Of a stretch of DNA of 39,824 bases, positions 17,859-31,379 are shown one piece after another. The stretch comes from Snowella sp. (GTDB lineage: Bacteria > Cyanobacteriota > Cyanobacteriia > Cyanobacteriales > Microcystaceae): positions 1 through 39,824 of the forward strand of contig QBMS01000011.1 of the NCBI GenBank assembly GCA_003249095.1. The letters are read 5' to 3'. A program made the position numbers and the translations under genes. Within the stretch, counting starts at the first letter, position 1, and each line of letters opens with the position of its first letter. The notes under the pieces were generated by a model that was not told the DNA's origin, did no database searches, and saw only the letters and a list, made by a program, of their open reading frames with translations.

Positions 17859-19064
17859 ATGAACCTTTCTTTTAAACAGCTTGGTGCTGCCACCGTTTTA
17901 TTGCTTCTCGGAGGCGGTTTGGGGGTTTTTGGCACTCGTTATCTCTTTACGTCCTTGGACGCGGATACTGCTTCAACTTCCTCACCTGCGATCGCCACTT
18001 CTGCTAAAGTCTTTCCCTTTACTGCCCCAGAAACAAACCCCAATGATTTGAACTTTATTGCTAAGGCGGCCCAAAAAGTTGGCCCCGCAGTCGTTCGGAT
18101 TGATGCGGCTCGTCAGGTGAGCGATGGCGAAAATGATCCCTTTGATCAACCGTTTTTTCGGCGTTTTTTTGGGCAAGAAAGACCGATTCCCAAGGAAAAC
18201 AGGGAGCATTTAGAACGGGGAACGGGTTCAGGATTCATTCTGTCGGCGGATGGTCGCGTTTTGACCAATGCCCATGTCATAGAGGGGACAACCCAGGTGA
18301 AAGTCACGCTCAAGGATGGAAAAATCTATCAGGGGAAGGTGATGGGGGTTGATCCGATGACCGATATTGCGGTTGTTCAAATTCAAGCCCAAAATTTACC
18401 CACTGTTTCCATTGGGGAGTCGAATAAACTACAACCAGGAGAATGGGCGATCGCGATCGGCAATCCTTTGGGACTCGATAATACGGTGACAGTGGGAATT
18501 ATTAGTGCCTTGGGACGGTCTAGCGTCGAAGTTGGTGTTCCCGATAAACGAGTCAAATTTATTCAAACCGATGCGGCGATTAATCCAGGCAACTCTGGTG
18601 GCCCTTTATTAAATGCCCAGGGAGAAGTGATCGGAGTCAATACTGCCATTCGGGCCGATGCCCAGGGACTCGGTTTTGCCATTCCCATTCAAACCGCCCA
18701 ACGGGTTGCAGACCAACTCTTTAGTCGAGGAAAAATGGAACATCCTTACCTTGGCATTCAAATGGTGACGCTCACCCCTGAATTAAAACAAGAATTACTG
18801 ACACAAAAAGAGTTACCTTTCAAAATTGAAGCCGAGAAAGGAGTTTTAATCGTTCAAATTGCTAAAAATTCTCCCGCATCCCAGGCAGGATTAAAGCCTG
18901 GGGATATTATTCTTAAGGTGGGAGGAACGAACGTTGAAACGGCGACCGACGTTCAAGAACAGGTTGAATTTAGTAAAATTGGTCAAATTTTGCAATTAGA
19001 AATTGATCGGCAACAAAAAATACAAATGATTGCCATTCGTCCAGAAGCTTTTCCTGTACAGTAG
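17859..19064 (+). CDS. HtrA/Deg-family serine protease with PDZ domain
   Basis: Deg/HtrA proteases degrade or refold damaged proteins in the periplasm, lumen or at membranes. The 401-residue protein has an N-terminal membrane segment (about 9-26, GAATVLLLLGGGLGVFGT), then a trypsin-like domain with H139 (LTNAHVIEG), D169 (DPMTDIAVV) and S246 (INPGNSGGPL), all present. One PDZ domain follows (about 295-395; YLGIQM, SPASQAGLKPGDIILKVGG). Length and layout match the cyanobacterial HhoA/HhoB/HtrA trio; I cannot assign which member. It is a lone gene, convergent with higA. Confidence 0.95.
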   Translation: MNLSFKQLGAATVLLLLGGGLGVFGTRYLFTSLDADTASTSSPAIATSAKVFPFTAPETNPNDLNFIAKAAQKVGPAVVRIDAARQVSDGENDPFDQPFFRRFFGQERPIPKENREHLERGTGSGFILSADGRVLTNAHVIEGTTQVKVTLKDGKIYQGKVMGVDPMTDIAVVQIQAQNLPTVSIGESNKLQPGEWAIAIGNPLGLDNTVTVGIISALGRSSVEVGVPDKRVKFIQTDAAINPGNSGGPLLNAQGEVIGVNTAIRADAQGLGFAIPIQTAQRVADQLFSRGKMEHPYLGIQMVTLTPELKQELLTQKELPFKIEAEKGVLIVQIAKNSPASQAGLKPGDIILKVGGTNVETATDVQEQVEFSKIGQILQLEIDRQQKIQMIAIRPEAFPVQ

Positions 19065-19095: not shown

Positions 19096-19404
19096 TTAAA
19101 CAGAACCCTGATAAGCAGAAATTTTTTCTAATTCAAGGGCTTCCTTTTGTTGAGCATGATATAAATCCCAACGCAATTGCAAATTTAACCAAAAATCTGC
19201 TGAATTTCCAAAAAATTTGGCAAGTCTTAGGGCTGTGCTAGGAGTAATTCCGCGTCGTCCATTAATTAGCTCATTAATGCGCTGATAAGGGACATAAATT
19301 TGAGTAGCCAGTTGTCTCTGGGTAATATCTAAAGGTTCAATAAATTCTTTTAATAACATTTCCCCAGGATGGGTCGGTAAACGATGAGTCGGTACTCTAA
19401 CCAT
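19096..19404 (-). CDS. higA: HigA-family antitoxin (XRE HTH)
   Basis: HigA binds and neutralises the HigB mRNA interferase and represses the operon. From ATG 19404 the protein has 102 residues, with the hallmark HPGEMLLKEFIEPL (12-25), a helix-turn-helix (about 27-52, ITQRQLATQIYVPYQRINEL) and ALRLAKFFGNSADFWLNLQ, the classic VapI/HigA sequence. I chose 19404 over the upstream ATG because GAGGAG lies 8 bases before it. Gene order higB then higA is normal, but here only the 3' part of higB is left upstream, so the antitoxin seems to be an orphan. Confidence 0.92.
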   Translation of the reverse strand: MVRVPTHRLPTHPGEMLLKEFIEPLDITQRQLATQIYVPYQRINELINGRRGITPSTALRLAKFFGNSADFWLNLQLRWDLYHAQQKEALELEKISAYQGSV

Positions 19405-19410
19405 AAAACT

Positions 19411-19416
19411 CTCCTC
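19411..19416 (-). promoter_or_regulatory. Strong ribosome binding site of higA
   Basis: GAGGAG on the minus strand lies in front of ATG 19404 and decides that start. It overlaps the stop codon of the higB remnant, as expected for a coupled TA operon. Confidence 0.7.
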
Positions 19417-19582
19417 ATGAATGATAATCAATAATCTCAACGTCAGTAGAAGTATTGTTTTCTAGCCAAATAAAACAAATGCGGTACTGGGAATTAATCC
19501 GAATACTATGCTGACCTTGGCGATCGCCTTTAAGGATTTCTAAACGATTACCAGGAGGAATGCGTAAATCATTAAGTGAATG
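19415..19582 (-). pseudogene. higB: higB toxin remnant, 5' half missing
   Basis: The minus strand encodes 55 residues plus stop that match the C-terminal part of HigB/RelE toxins. HSLNDLRIPPGNRLEILKG is followed by GQHSIRINSQYRICFIWLEN and VEIIDYH, the standard order in HigB of about 92 residues. The first ~40 residues are absent. Going upstream, the frame meets the TGA that ends the pentapeptide-repeat gene, with no start codon before the HigB-specific part. The toxin is therefore broken at position ~19583. The stop codon sits in the higA ribosome binding site. Confidence 0.8.
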
Positions 19583-20824
19583 TCAGCGACCTAGCTTATT
19601 GGGAATCCCTTCACAGCCGCCAGGGATTGTTTTTCGAGTATTTTCTCCTCCCCAGGCACAACAATAGCAACGTTGTTCTTCGCTCATGTTTTTAACTCCC
19701 CTGAAGTTAGCATTTTCGATGACGGTTCCCGTTCTTTCTCCTGTTTCGTAATTGGGGTGATGACCGCGATCGCGGGGAGTGGCGGTTTCTAAGGAGCCGT
19801 AGAATAAACGAGTGCCTTTCAGGTCAGCATTTTCCAGATTTGCTTCATAAAGAACCGTGCGAGATAGGTTTGCTTTAACTAAATCGGTGTAACCTAAATT
19901 GGCGCGAATTAAATAAATATCACTCAGATCGACCCAGCGCAAATCCTGTTCGGATAGATCGGCGGCCACTAACATAACCCCTAAACTAATCACTCGTATG
20001 CCTTCCGCTCGATCTTCTTGATAACCCCCTAAACCATCAAAAATGGGACGACCAAGATAATGATCCCGCCGAATAGGAGTCAGTAGTTTGGATTGGGACA
20101 AAAAACGTAAAATTTTGGCTTTTCCGTTGGAATCCACACTGGATAAAATCGCGGCTGTCCTACCTTCCGCAAAGGCTCTTTCCTGGGGCCAATCTTCTAA
20201 CATTCCTTCATCGTTCAGTGCCAGATCAGAAATTCCTTGAAAATAAGCGTCAATGGTTTGTTGTTGGGTAATGCGATTTTGTTGAATGGTTAAATCCTTA
20301 GAAATGACGTATTGTTGCCAGGCGACATAAACCGCTAAGACAGCAATCATAATTTGACCCAAGGCTCCCACCCATTCAGCCCAGGAACCGAATTCATCGT
20401 ATTTAAAGGTATTTAGCCATTGACTAACGAGATCATAAAATCCGATATATTTCGCAATTCCCGCGATCGCCAAAATAAAACTCAGGCTACCGATCAGCGA
20501 TCGCCGTTCTTGAACCGTTAAATACCGCAGAATCCAGCTTTTAAATGAGGGTAAGATGACTTGAAGAGCTAACATTAGGGCCACAATTGCAGCAGTAAAC
20601 CCCAGCCAAGCAAGATTAAAAACTAAACCAATGGCCATTAAACCTACTGCGGTTAACAACAACCAGGGATCGGACGTTTCTACGGGTTTCGTCCAAAAAG
20701 GTTTGGAAAGCGATCGCGGGGGAATGGGAATCGGCAGGTTTTCAGCTAATGGGGGTTGAATGTTGGTAAGGCGATCGCGTTCCTGGCTGTTCAAATTAGT
20801 CTGAGAATCGGGTTCAAGAGTCAT
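19583..20824 (-). CDS. Pentapeptide-repeat membrane protein
   Basis: The 413-residue protein has three or four hydrophobic segments in the first 180 residues (LLLTAVGLMAIGLVFNLAWL, SLIGSLSFILAIAGIAKYIGF and the segment ending AVLAVYVAWQQYV). A soluble part follows, then pentapeptide repeats A(D/N)LXX (about 283-350; ADLSEQDL, ANLGYTDL, ANLSRTVL, ANLENADL). The repeats should form a right-handed quadrilateral beta-helix facing the cytosol. The C terminus has a CYCCAWGGENTRKTIPGGC stretch typical of a cyanobacterial subgroup. The role is unknown. The stop codon abuts the higB remnant. Confidence 0.9.
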   Translation of the reverse strand: MTLEPDSQTNLNSQERDRLTNIQPPLAENLPIPIPPRSLSKPFWTKPVETSDPWLLLTAVGLMAIGLVFNLAWLGFTAAIVALMLALQVILPSFKSWILRYLTVQERRSLIGSLSFILAIAGIAKYIGFYDLVSQWLNTFKYDEFGSWAEWVGALGQIMIAVLAVYVAWQQYVISKDLTIQQNRITQQQTIDAYFQGISDLALNDEGMLEDWPQERAFAEGRTAAILSSVDSNGKAKILRFLSQSKLLTPIRRDHYLGRPIFDGLGGYQEDRAEGIRVISLGVMLVAADLSEQDLRWVDLSDIYLIRANLGYTDLVKANLSRTVLYEANLENADLKGTRLFYGSLETATPRDRGHHPNYETGERTGTVIENANFRGVKNMSEEQRCYCCAWGGENTRKTIPGGCEGIPNKLGR

Positions 20825-22743: not shown

Positions 22744-23118
22744 ATGAAACCTTATTCCATTGACTTACGGCAAAAAGTGCTAGACGCGCACTTAAAAAAC
22801 CAGACCAGTATCAGAGAGATCGCGGAAAAATTTGGGGTGAGCGACAGCTTCGTCCGCAAATTACTGAAACGCCATCAGGAAACGGGGGGAATTGAACCCA
22901 AACCCCACAGTGGTGGTGCTTCCGCAAAATTGACCGAAGAACATTATGTTCTAGTCGAGAGCATGATCGCAGAAAATAACAACATTACTCTTGTTGTTCT
23001 GTGCAAGCAAATCGAAGCGAAAACGGGCATCAGGGTCAGTGTTCCTACGATGTGCCGTATTTTGCAAAAACTAAAACTGGGTAAGAACAAAAAATCGGCT
23101 CAGGCTGCCGAAGCCTAA
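22744..23118 (+). CDS. IS630-type OrfA: stand-alone transposase DNA-binding domain
   Basis: The 124-residue protein begins MKPYSIDLRQKVLDAHLK and has a helix-turn-helix (about 21-46, TSIREIAEKFGVSDSFVRKLL) and a second winged-helix-like part (SVPTMCRILQKLKLGKNKKS). This is the N-terminal half of IS630 transposases, which in many elements is a separate OrfA joined to the DDE OrfB by frameshift. Here it ends in AQAAEA-stop, and no DDE coding sequence follows in any frame before the next gene, nor do I see flanking terminal repeats. It is either a relic or a domesticated DNA-binding protein. The frame is intact, which slightly favours use by the host. Confidence 0.82.
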   Translation: MKPYSIDLRQKVLDAHLKNQTSIREIAEKFGVSDSFVRKLLKRHQETGGIEPKPHSGGASAKLTEEHYVLVESMIAENNNITLVVLCKQIEAKTGIRVSVPTMCRILQKLKLGKNKKSAQAAEA

Positions 23119-30038: not shown

Positions 30039-31379
30039 ATGACATCTCCACTTTTACCCTGGCCAGAAATTCAGCAAGCACTAATCGACCAGAATCTAAC
30101 CGTTATTAGCGATCGCGGTCAACTAGACAAACTTTCCTTAGACTATTTTCATTTTAGTCCCATTTTAGACCGTCAACTCCGAGACAAGCGGGGAAACCTG
30201 GTTGTTCGCCCAAAAACAGAAGCAGAGGTAATAATAGTCGCCCAAACCTGTGTTAACTATCGTATTCCTCTGACCGTTAGAGGCGCAGGAACAGGGAACT
30301 ATGGCCAATGTATCCCCCTCGACGGTGGCATTATTCTAGATTTGAGTCAGCTTAATCAAATTCTTGACTTGAAACCAGGGGTCGCTAGGGTCGAATCTGG
30401 GGTCAAAATGGGCAATATTGATAAAAAAAGTCAACCAATGGGTTGGGAACTACGGATGGCTCCTTCTACCTACCGCACGGCAACGATGGGCGGATTTATC
30501 GGTGGGGGCAGTGTGGGCATGGGGTCAGTCAATTACGGCTTAATCAGCGATCGCGGCAATGTGCAGGGCCTACGCATTGTCACCCTAGAGGATACTCCCC
30601 AAATTATTGAATTACGGGGCGACGACACCCAAGCGGTAATTCATGCCTACGGAACTAACGGTATTATTACCCAACTCCAAATTCCTCTGGCTCCTGTCTA
30701 TCCCTGGGCAGAATTAATCGTCACCTTTGATCATTTCAGTCAATCGGTAAATTTTGGTCAAGCATTAAGCGAGAGTAGCGGCATTGTCAAAAAACAAGTC
30801 GCTGTTCATGCCGCTCCCATGTCCCAATATTTTACGGCTTTAAAAGATTATCTTTCACCCCAAAAAGCCTGTGCATTATTAATGGTTTCTGAATACGATC
30901 TAGAAGCAGTTAAAGCTTTAATTCAAGAATATTCGGGAGAGATTACCTATCTCAAAAATACCGAAGAAGCGACCAAAAGTTATAATCTCTTAGAGTTTAA
31001 CTGGAACCATACAACTTTATTGGCTCGCAGTATTGATCCCAGTTTGACCTATTTACAAGTTTTTTATTGGACAGTGGAAAACGTTGAAAAACTCTATCAA
31101 TATTTTGGGGATGAGGTAATAATTCACTTAGAATTTATCCGAGTCAATGGTAAAGTTATTCCTGCGGGCTTGCCCCTGGTTCGTTTTACCACCGAAGAAC
31201 GCTTAAATGAAATTATTGCTTACCACCGCAACCAAGGAACGGGCATTGCCAATCCCCATGTTTATACCATCGAAGAAGGTGGATCGGGTCAGATTAATCC
31301 TGAGCAATTAGCCTTTAAAAAACAAGTTGATCCCTACGGTTTAATGAATCCAGGAAAAATGAAAGCTTGGTCAATTTAG
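30039..31379 (+). CDS. FAD-binding (PCMH-type) oxidoreductase, GlcD-like
   Basis: From ATG 30039 the protein has 446 residues. The N-terminal half is an FAD_binding_4 domain: NLVVRPKTEAEVIIVAQTC, RGAGTGNYGQ near 82-91, the GGIILDLSQLNQIL strand, VESGVKMGNID, and ATMGGFIGGGSVGMGSVNYG near 150-170, which binds the flavin pyrophosphate. The C-terminal part ends in DPYGLMNPGKMKAW, a typical motif of the family. Substrates of this group are 2-hydroxy acids, sugar lactones or similar; which one is not clear. An upstream TTG (30000) lies inside a palindrome and is unlikely to be the start. Confidence 0.88.
   Translation: MTSPLLPWPEIQQALIDQNLTVISDRGQLDKLSLDYFHFSPILDRQLRDKRGNLVVRPKTEAEVIIVAQTCVNYRIPLTVRGAGTGNYGQCIPLDGGIILDLSQLNQILDLKPGVARVESGVKMGNIDKKSQPMGWELRMAPSTYRTATMGGFIGGGSVGMGSVNYGLISDRGNVQGLRIVTLEDTPQIIELRGDDTQAVIHAYGTNGIITQLQIPLAPVYPWAELIVTFDHFSQSVNFGQALSESSGIVKKQVAVHAAPMSQYFTALKDYLSPQKACALLMVSEYDLEAVKALIQEYSGEITYLKNTEEATKSYNLLEFNWNHTTLLARSIDPSLTYLQVFYWTVENVEKLYQYFGDEVIIHLEFIRVNGKVIPAGLPLVRFTTEERLNEIIAYHRNQGTGIANPHVYTIEEGGSGQINPEQLAFKKQVDPYGLMNPGKMKAWSI

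Follow-up and report, generated by a model that had tools for sequence, protein, structure and literature searches.

An intact higA antitoxin gene behind a 5'-truncated higB in a Snowella genome, probably the remnant of a decayed toxin-antitoxin module

An antitoxin gene that stands behind a toxin gene without a front raises the question of why the antitoxin is still there: whether it acts as an anti-addiction factor or a plain repressor, as an earlier note on this locus had suggested, or is simply what is left of a decaying pair. The locus lies in a stretch of 39,824 nucleotides from the cyanobacterium Snowella sp., a relative of Microcystis (assembly GCA_003249095.1, contig QBMS01000011.1, positions 1 to 39,824; hereafter the window), which is part of a 58.5-kb contig in a 4.6-Mb draft genome of 237 contigs. 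Three genes follow one another on the minus strand: a complete pentapeptide-repeat gene of 413 aa (19583..20824), a remnant of higB consisting of roughly its last 53 codons and the stop (19415..19582), and the complete antitoxin gene higA (19096..19404). Convergent with them, on the plus strand, is a gene at 17859..19064, which ends 31 nt from the higA stop and which we take, from its sequence features, to encode an HtrA-like serine protease. The pentapeptide-repeat protein appears to be of membrane type, judging from its hydrophobic N-terminal half. On the other side of the locus, an ORF at 22744..23118 (plus strand) resembles the N-terminal part of a transposase, presumably one of the IS630 type.

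The antitoxin gene runs from an ATG at 19404 to a stop at 19098..19096 and encodes a protein of 102 aa of the HTH_3/HigA family, which scores 107.8 bits against NCBIfam TIGR02607 (antidote_HigA; cut-off 47.7). A ribosome-binding-site-like GGAGAG, found by direct reading of the sequence (19409..19414, minus strand), ends 4 nt before the ATG, and the earlier note was right to call both the antitoxin and this site complete. The TTG start at 19440 in the ORF list is a mechanical choice; relatives and the ribosome-binding site favour the ATG. Of 64 positions conserved above 70% in 110 paired relatives, the protein matches 60; the residues that it has at the other four also occur in relatives, and neither the helix-turn-helix (HTH) region nor the conserved stretch around the recognition helix is damaged.

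The toxin frame (HSLNDLRIPPGNRLEILKG...VEIIDYHS, 19582..19418, minus strand; stop TGA 19417..19415) scores 50.2 bits against the HigB-like toxin profile Pfam PF05015 (cut-off 27, E 3.7e-13), but the match is confined to profile positions 42-91 of 91. In this subfamily a full-length HigB measures about 97 aa. In the window, HigB homology resumes 4 nt past the TGA of the pentapeptide gene, a stop codon that directly adjoins the remnant and is in frame with it, and extends over codons ~45-97; the start codon, the upstream control region and the first ~44 of ~97 codons are missing. This loss is close to the ~40 residues that had been claimed before, and the break does fall at the end of the pentapeptide gene. 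A profile of HigB residues 1-45 matched nothing in the six frames of the window at E up to 100 and scored 84-88 bits at three control loci, all three belonging to its training set. This speaks against a frameshift or a hidden N terminus, and neither an upstream frameshift supplying the N terminus nor an intact higB in the same operon, either of which the earlier note had taken as grounds for abandoning its reading, was found in the assembly.

Some full-length HigB queries do align weakly through the stop into the C terminus of the pentapeptide protein (tblastn, HMMER); the stretch concerned is conserved pentapeptide sequence in relatives. Homology between this C terminus and HigB N termini, considered as a cause of the junction, is weak and was taken as chance (p 0.21 on average against shuffles; below 0.05 in 20% of the 110 comparisons, which are not independent). 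The pentapeptide gene itself is not truncated, because sequence comparison finds the same C-terminal stretch and end point in relatives, where the stop codon varies (TAA in 12, TGA in 6 and TAG in 4 of the 22 genes examined, the window included). The pentapeptide loci of 29 relatives contain neither a pre-deletion arrangement nor an empty site, and within flanks of up to ~1.5 kb they have neither htrA nor TrhO as neighbours. The in-frame TGA has a C next to it, and a TGA followed by C is a leaky stop context. We found no evidence of a pentapeptide-HigB fusion made by read-through of this stop, and its probability is close to nil.

The junction could in principle have been produced by faulty assembly or sequencing, given that the genome is a draft in so many contigs and that the junction is known from one assembly. 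Yet it sits inside its long contig rather than at an edge, and similar 5' truncations are found in unrelated genomes, for example in Microcystis viridis FACHB-1342 when compared with M. aeruginosa LEGE 91341. We consider an artefact highly improbable.

The nearest guide to what such a remnant might still do is GraTA of Pseudomonas putida (PDB 6f8s), a HigBA-type system that has the toxin-first order and the HTH antitoxin in common with the Snowella locus. Among solved structures, a full-length HigB of the subfamily (the Microcystis copy L049) matches only GraT (E 6e-25). Unlike GraTA, the window has neither the operator region nor the start and N-terminal half of the toxin. Since GraT deprived of its 22 N-terminal residues is described as non-toxic (PMC6393540), no active toxin would be expected from a HigB remnant that has no start codon and has lost its N-terminal half. 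Among the features of a functional type II HigBA module, the window retains an HTH antitoxin adjacent to and downstream of the toxin, with 10 nt between the higB stop and the higA ATG; a complete HigB-like toxin ORF is absent, as is an operator and promoter upstream of the first gene, to judge from a conserved dyad that is missing here.

This dyad came to light in a survey of 164 higA loci: 84 from an order set (all higA hits of E 3.0e-30 or better in 388 genomes of the same order, themselves a sample of a larger group) and 80 kept of the 206 found in a set of genome contigs. After six duplicates had been dropped, 82 and 76 distinct loci remained. The intact loci, 110 in number, come from several phyla, and 99 of them, L159 included, carry just 5' of higB a 27-bp dyad close to TAGCATGATAACCGTGTTATCATGCTA, placed exactly 2 nt before the higB start used in 72 of the 99. 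Information content upstream of higB rises only across the dyad and at the coding start, and with a dyad matrix cross-validated between the two sets, 40/50 and 57/59 held-out loci beat every shuffled score. From its position and symmetry and by analogy with the autoregulation known for GraA (PMC6393540), the dyad is probably the HigA operator; it is unlike the central palindrome TAACGTTA given for GraA in that paper. Among the papers listed by literature searches for the dyad core and for studies of HigA operators in a cyanobacterial context, we found no description of it, which does not prove that there is none. The dyad matrix reaches no more than 5.4 in the window, whereas the lowest-scoring of the 99 carriers has 12.7. 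Among the 48 loci without a full higB, nine retain a clear dyad (score >15) and one a partial dyad (L158, 10.6). Most of the nine are cases of frameshift, stop or internal deletion, and in the 5'-truncated loci examined, the window included, the dyad has been lost.

These observations weigh on the proposal, made in the earlier note, that HigA has been retained as a plain repressor, a transcription factor acting on its own promoter or on others. The intact HTH and recognition-helix regions are what such a role would require. Nevertheless, a stand-alone autoregulated repressor would be expected to have its operator nearby or elsewhere in the genome, and the dyad carried by so many intact relatives was found in neither place: it is missing from the window, and a scan of the whole genome with the dyad pattern gave no sites at 0-1 mismatches and 12 at two, which is chance level (14 in the reversed control). 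This pattern finds 84/110 intact loci at up to one mismatch and 96/110 at up to two, and a diverged operator would escape it. The repressor proposal thus fares poorly, and we think it very unlikely. An internal higA promoter within the 3' half of higB was also considered and is not supported, as no sigma-70-like site in either direction scored above shuffles in a search that covers the retained 3' half. The excess of identical codons in this half is slight (0.97-1.11, versus 0.90-1.03 in codons 1-50, in the order set).

A different employment for HigA would be to guard against, or cross-regulate, other modules in the same genome. As the earlier note had advised, other higBA copies were sought, and three full-length HigB genes were found elsewhere (contigs C61, C33 and C122), all more distant and none clearly of the remnant's subfamily: compared with that subfamily's HigB from Microcystis, two are 56-57% identical and the third 32%. 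The existence of these three toxins, the nearest of them 57% identical to a same-subfamily HigB, gives the idea some footing. Against it, each has its own HigA nearby, 34-50% identical to the window HigA, and none of the three loci has the subfamily dyad (best scores 2.6-6.2), so that we attach very little weight to cross-guarding. The genome search found no same-subfamily HigB elsewhere in the assembly, and the window HigA is therefore without a same-subfamily partner there. A second decayed higBA was seen on contig C122 (L261, about 30479-30975), with two TGA codons in the HigB frame and an open HigA frame.

The survey also places the Snowella locus among its relatives. The 82 distinct loci of the order set comprise 50 with a full higB, 16 with a partial one, 4 with an early stop or frameshift in the match and 12 with none detectable. 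In the set of genome contigs, a full higB is present in 60 of the 76 distinct loci and missing in 16, three of which (L118, L136 and L153) have too little upstream sequence, less than 300 bp, for a verdict. The subfamily thus often loses the toxin while retaining the antitoxin, and the loss has a direction: 32 of the 82 order-set loci are without a full higB, whereas all 53 higB matches in the same order (E up to 2.6e-35) have higA as a neighbour, 11-129 nt downstream (median 19). A stop occurs within 3 of these 53 strong higB matches and, in higA, within the first ~95 codons at 5 of the 48 loci where higB is not complete. A preference of toxin-less higA genes for a co-directional upstream gene was not significant (17/19, versus 32/47 of intact loci; Fisher p 0.12).

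The neighbourhoods and breakpoints of the toxin-less loci vary. Some higB-less loci adjoin other antitoxin-like genes, read by eye; at L094 and L135, a small ORF resembling an XRE-type regulator, its type likewise judged by eye, replaces higB about 290 nt upstream of higA. The 5' breakpoints read in truncated higB genes lie mostly at codons 36-64 and hardly ever at 13-35 (L045, L050, L250, L251, L253, L062, L171, L208, L265, L266, L269 and L270 are among the loci concerned), a pattern noted post hoc in a protein whose N terminus is also its least conserved part. At L252 (genome G172) and L264 (G270), roughly 100 bp of extra sequence split higB near codons 38 and 47. In Microcystis viridis FACHB-1342 (L050), higB has a parallel 5' truncation at about codon 47-48, and M. 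aeruginosa LEGE 91341 carries an intact copy at the matching locus (L049); the alignment of the two breaks sharply at the truncation, and the higA side is 97% identical.

Divergence bears on how long ago the toxin may have been lost at the Snowella locus. The mean distance of the HigB remnant to intact HigBs falls at the 83rd percentile of the intact ones, that of HigA at the 38th, and the HigB-minus-HigA difference at the 88th. These values do not clearly point to faster decay of the remnant: its divergence is rather high, so that some decay may have taken place, yet it stays within what intact HigBs display, and measured against the divergence from known relatives the loss therefore appears recent. 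Other truncated remnants are mixed in this respect, L100 and L132 being highly diverged and L050, L171, L186 and L208 not. Divergence gives no evidence of relaxed or of purifying selection once the toxin was gone, and hence none of selective retention of HigA. The statement that an antitoxin was kept after toxin loss thus holds insofar as the toxin has been lost and HigA is intact; that it was selectively kept finds no support in a remnant at the 83rd percentile.

This last point touches the anti-addiction explanation, according to which an expressed orphan HigA would neutralise the HigB of incoming modules of the same subfamily and make the loss of the plasmids that carry them harmless. Several observations are compatible with it: the window HigA is intact, toxin-less higA genes recur among relatives, and HigA genes 60-74% identical to that of the window occur on cyanobacterial plasmids (in Synechococcus NIES-970, Stanieria and Chroococcidiopsis, among others), which would give such a factor plausible targets; phage records contain only more distant HigA relatives, below 60% identity. 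A model of this kind exists for other antitoxins, as set out in PMC2654758 and PMC7354431. However, antitoxins decay too, as the early higA stops in 5 of 48 loci that lack a complete higB attest, and the HigB remnant bears no clear sign of long retention of HigA after the toxin was lost. We regard the anti-addiction explanation as unlikely, though not negligible.

The account that we favour, and hold to be probable, is that the locus is a decayed type II higBA module of the GraTA-like kind, with an intact and probably unregulated antitoxin. The ancestral module would have been complete, with the toxin gene first. A deletion or rearrangement, an event that we infer from the observed position of the break, would then have removed the operator and promoter together with the first ~44 codons of higB, its other end lying just past the stop codon of the pentapeptide-repeat gene. 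The HigB frame left behind, devoid of a start codon and of its N-terminal half, would have no toxin activity. HigA, being intact, is predicted to be still able to fold, dimerise and bind a same-subfamily HigB. Because its own operator is gone, any expression of higA would come from read-through out of the pentapeptide gene and would escape autoregulation. What is left would most likely be a remnant of fairly recent origin, neutral or nearly so.

Orphan antitoxins are already known, and the window locus is an ordinary remnant of a decayed pair, of a kind common among its relatives. They have been described in number in Klebsiella pneumoniae (PMC7192599), where, as here, an intact antitoxin stands without a working partner toxin. 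By the criteria given in that study (a coding sequence for 50-150 aa and at least 75% identity over at least 50 aa to the antitoxin of a valid pair), the window HigA is an orphan antitoxin: it has 102 aa and, over residues 1-95, is 77.9% identical to the HigA of L048, a locus with a full HigB. In comparison with the orphan antitoxins described there, it belongs to another phylum, a remnant of its toxin can still be seen, and the operator that it has lost is recognisable. Chromosomal ccd(O157) of E. coli (Mine et al. 2009, as cited in PMC2654758) is likewise a chromosomal toxin-antitoxin locus in the course of degeneration, although of the ccd and not the higBA type. Both the anti-addiction and the remnant readings of orphan antitoxins are discussed in PMC7192599, PMC7354431 and PMC2654758.

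What is new is the conserved dyad 5' of intact higB genes of this subfamily and its disappearance from the window. A HigA freed of its operator and transcribed from a neighbouring gene might provide constitutive immunity against plasmid-borne HigBA of the same subfamily, which would account for the recurrence of the toxin-less class; we put this forward as a rather improbable conjecture. By itself, the window locus is one more decayed toxin-antitoxin locus. The dyad, for its part, gives a sequence test that separates an orphan repressor with an operator from an antitoxin cut off from it, and the asymmetry between toxin and antitoxin makes the subfamily tractable for testing whether such antitoxins are under anti-addiction selection or are the harmless half of a dying pair.
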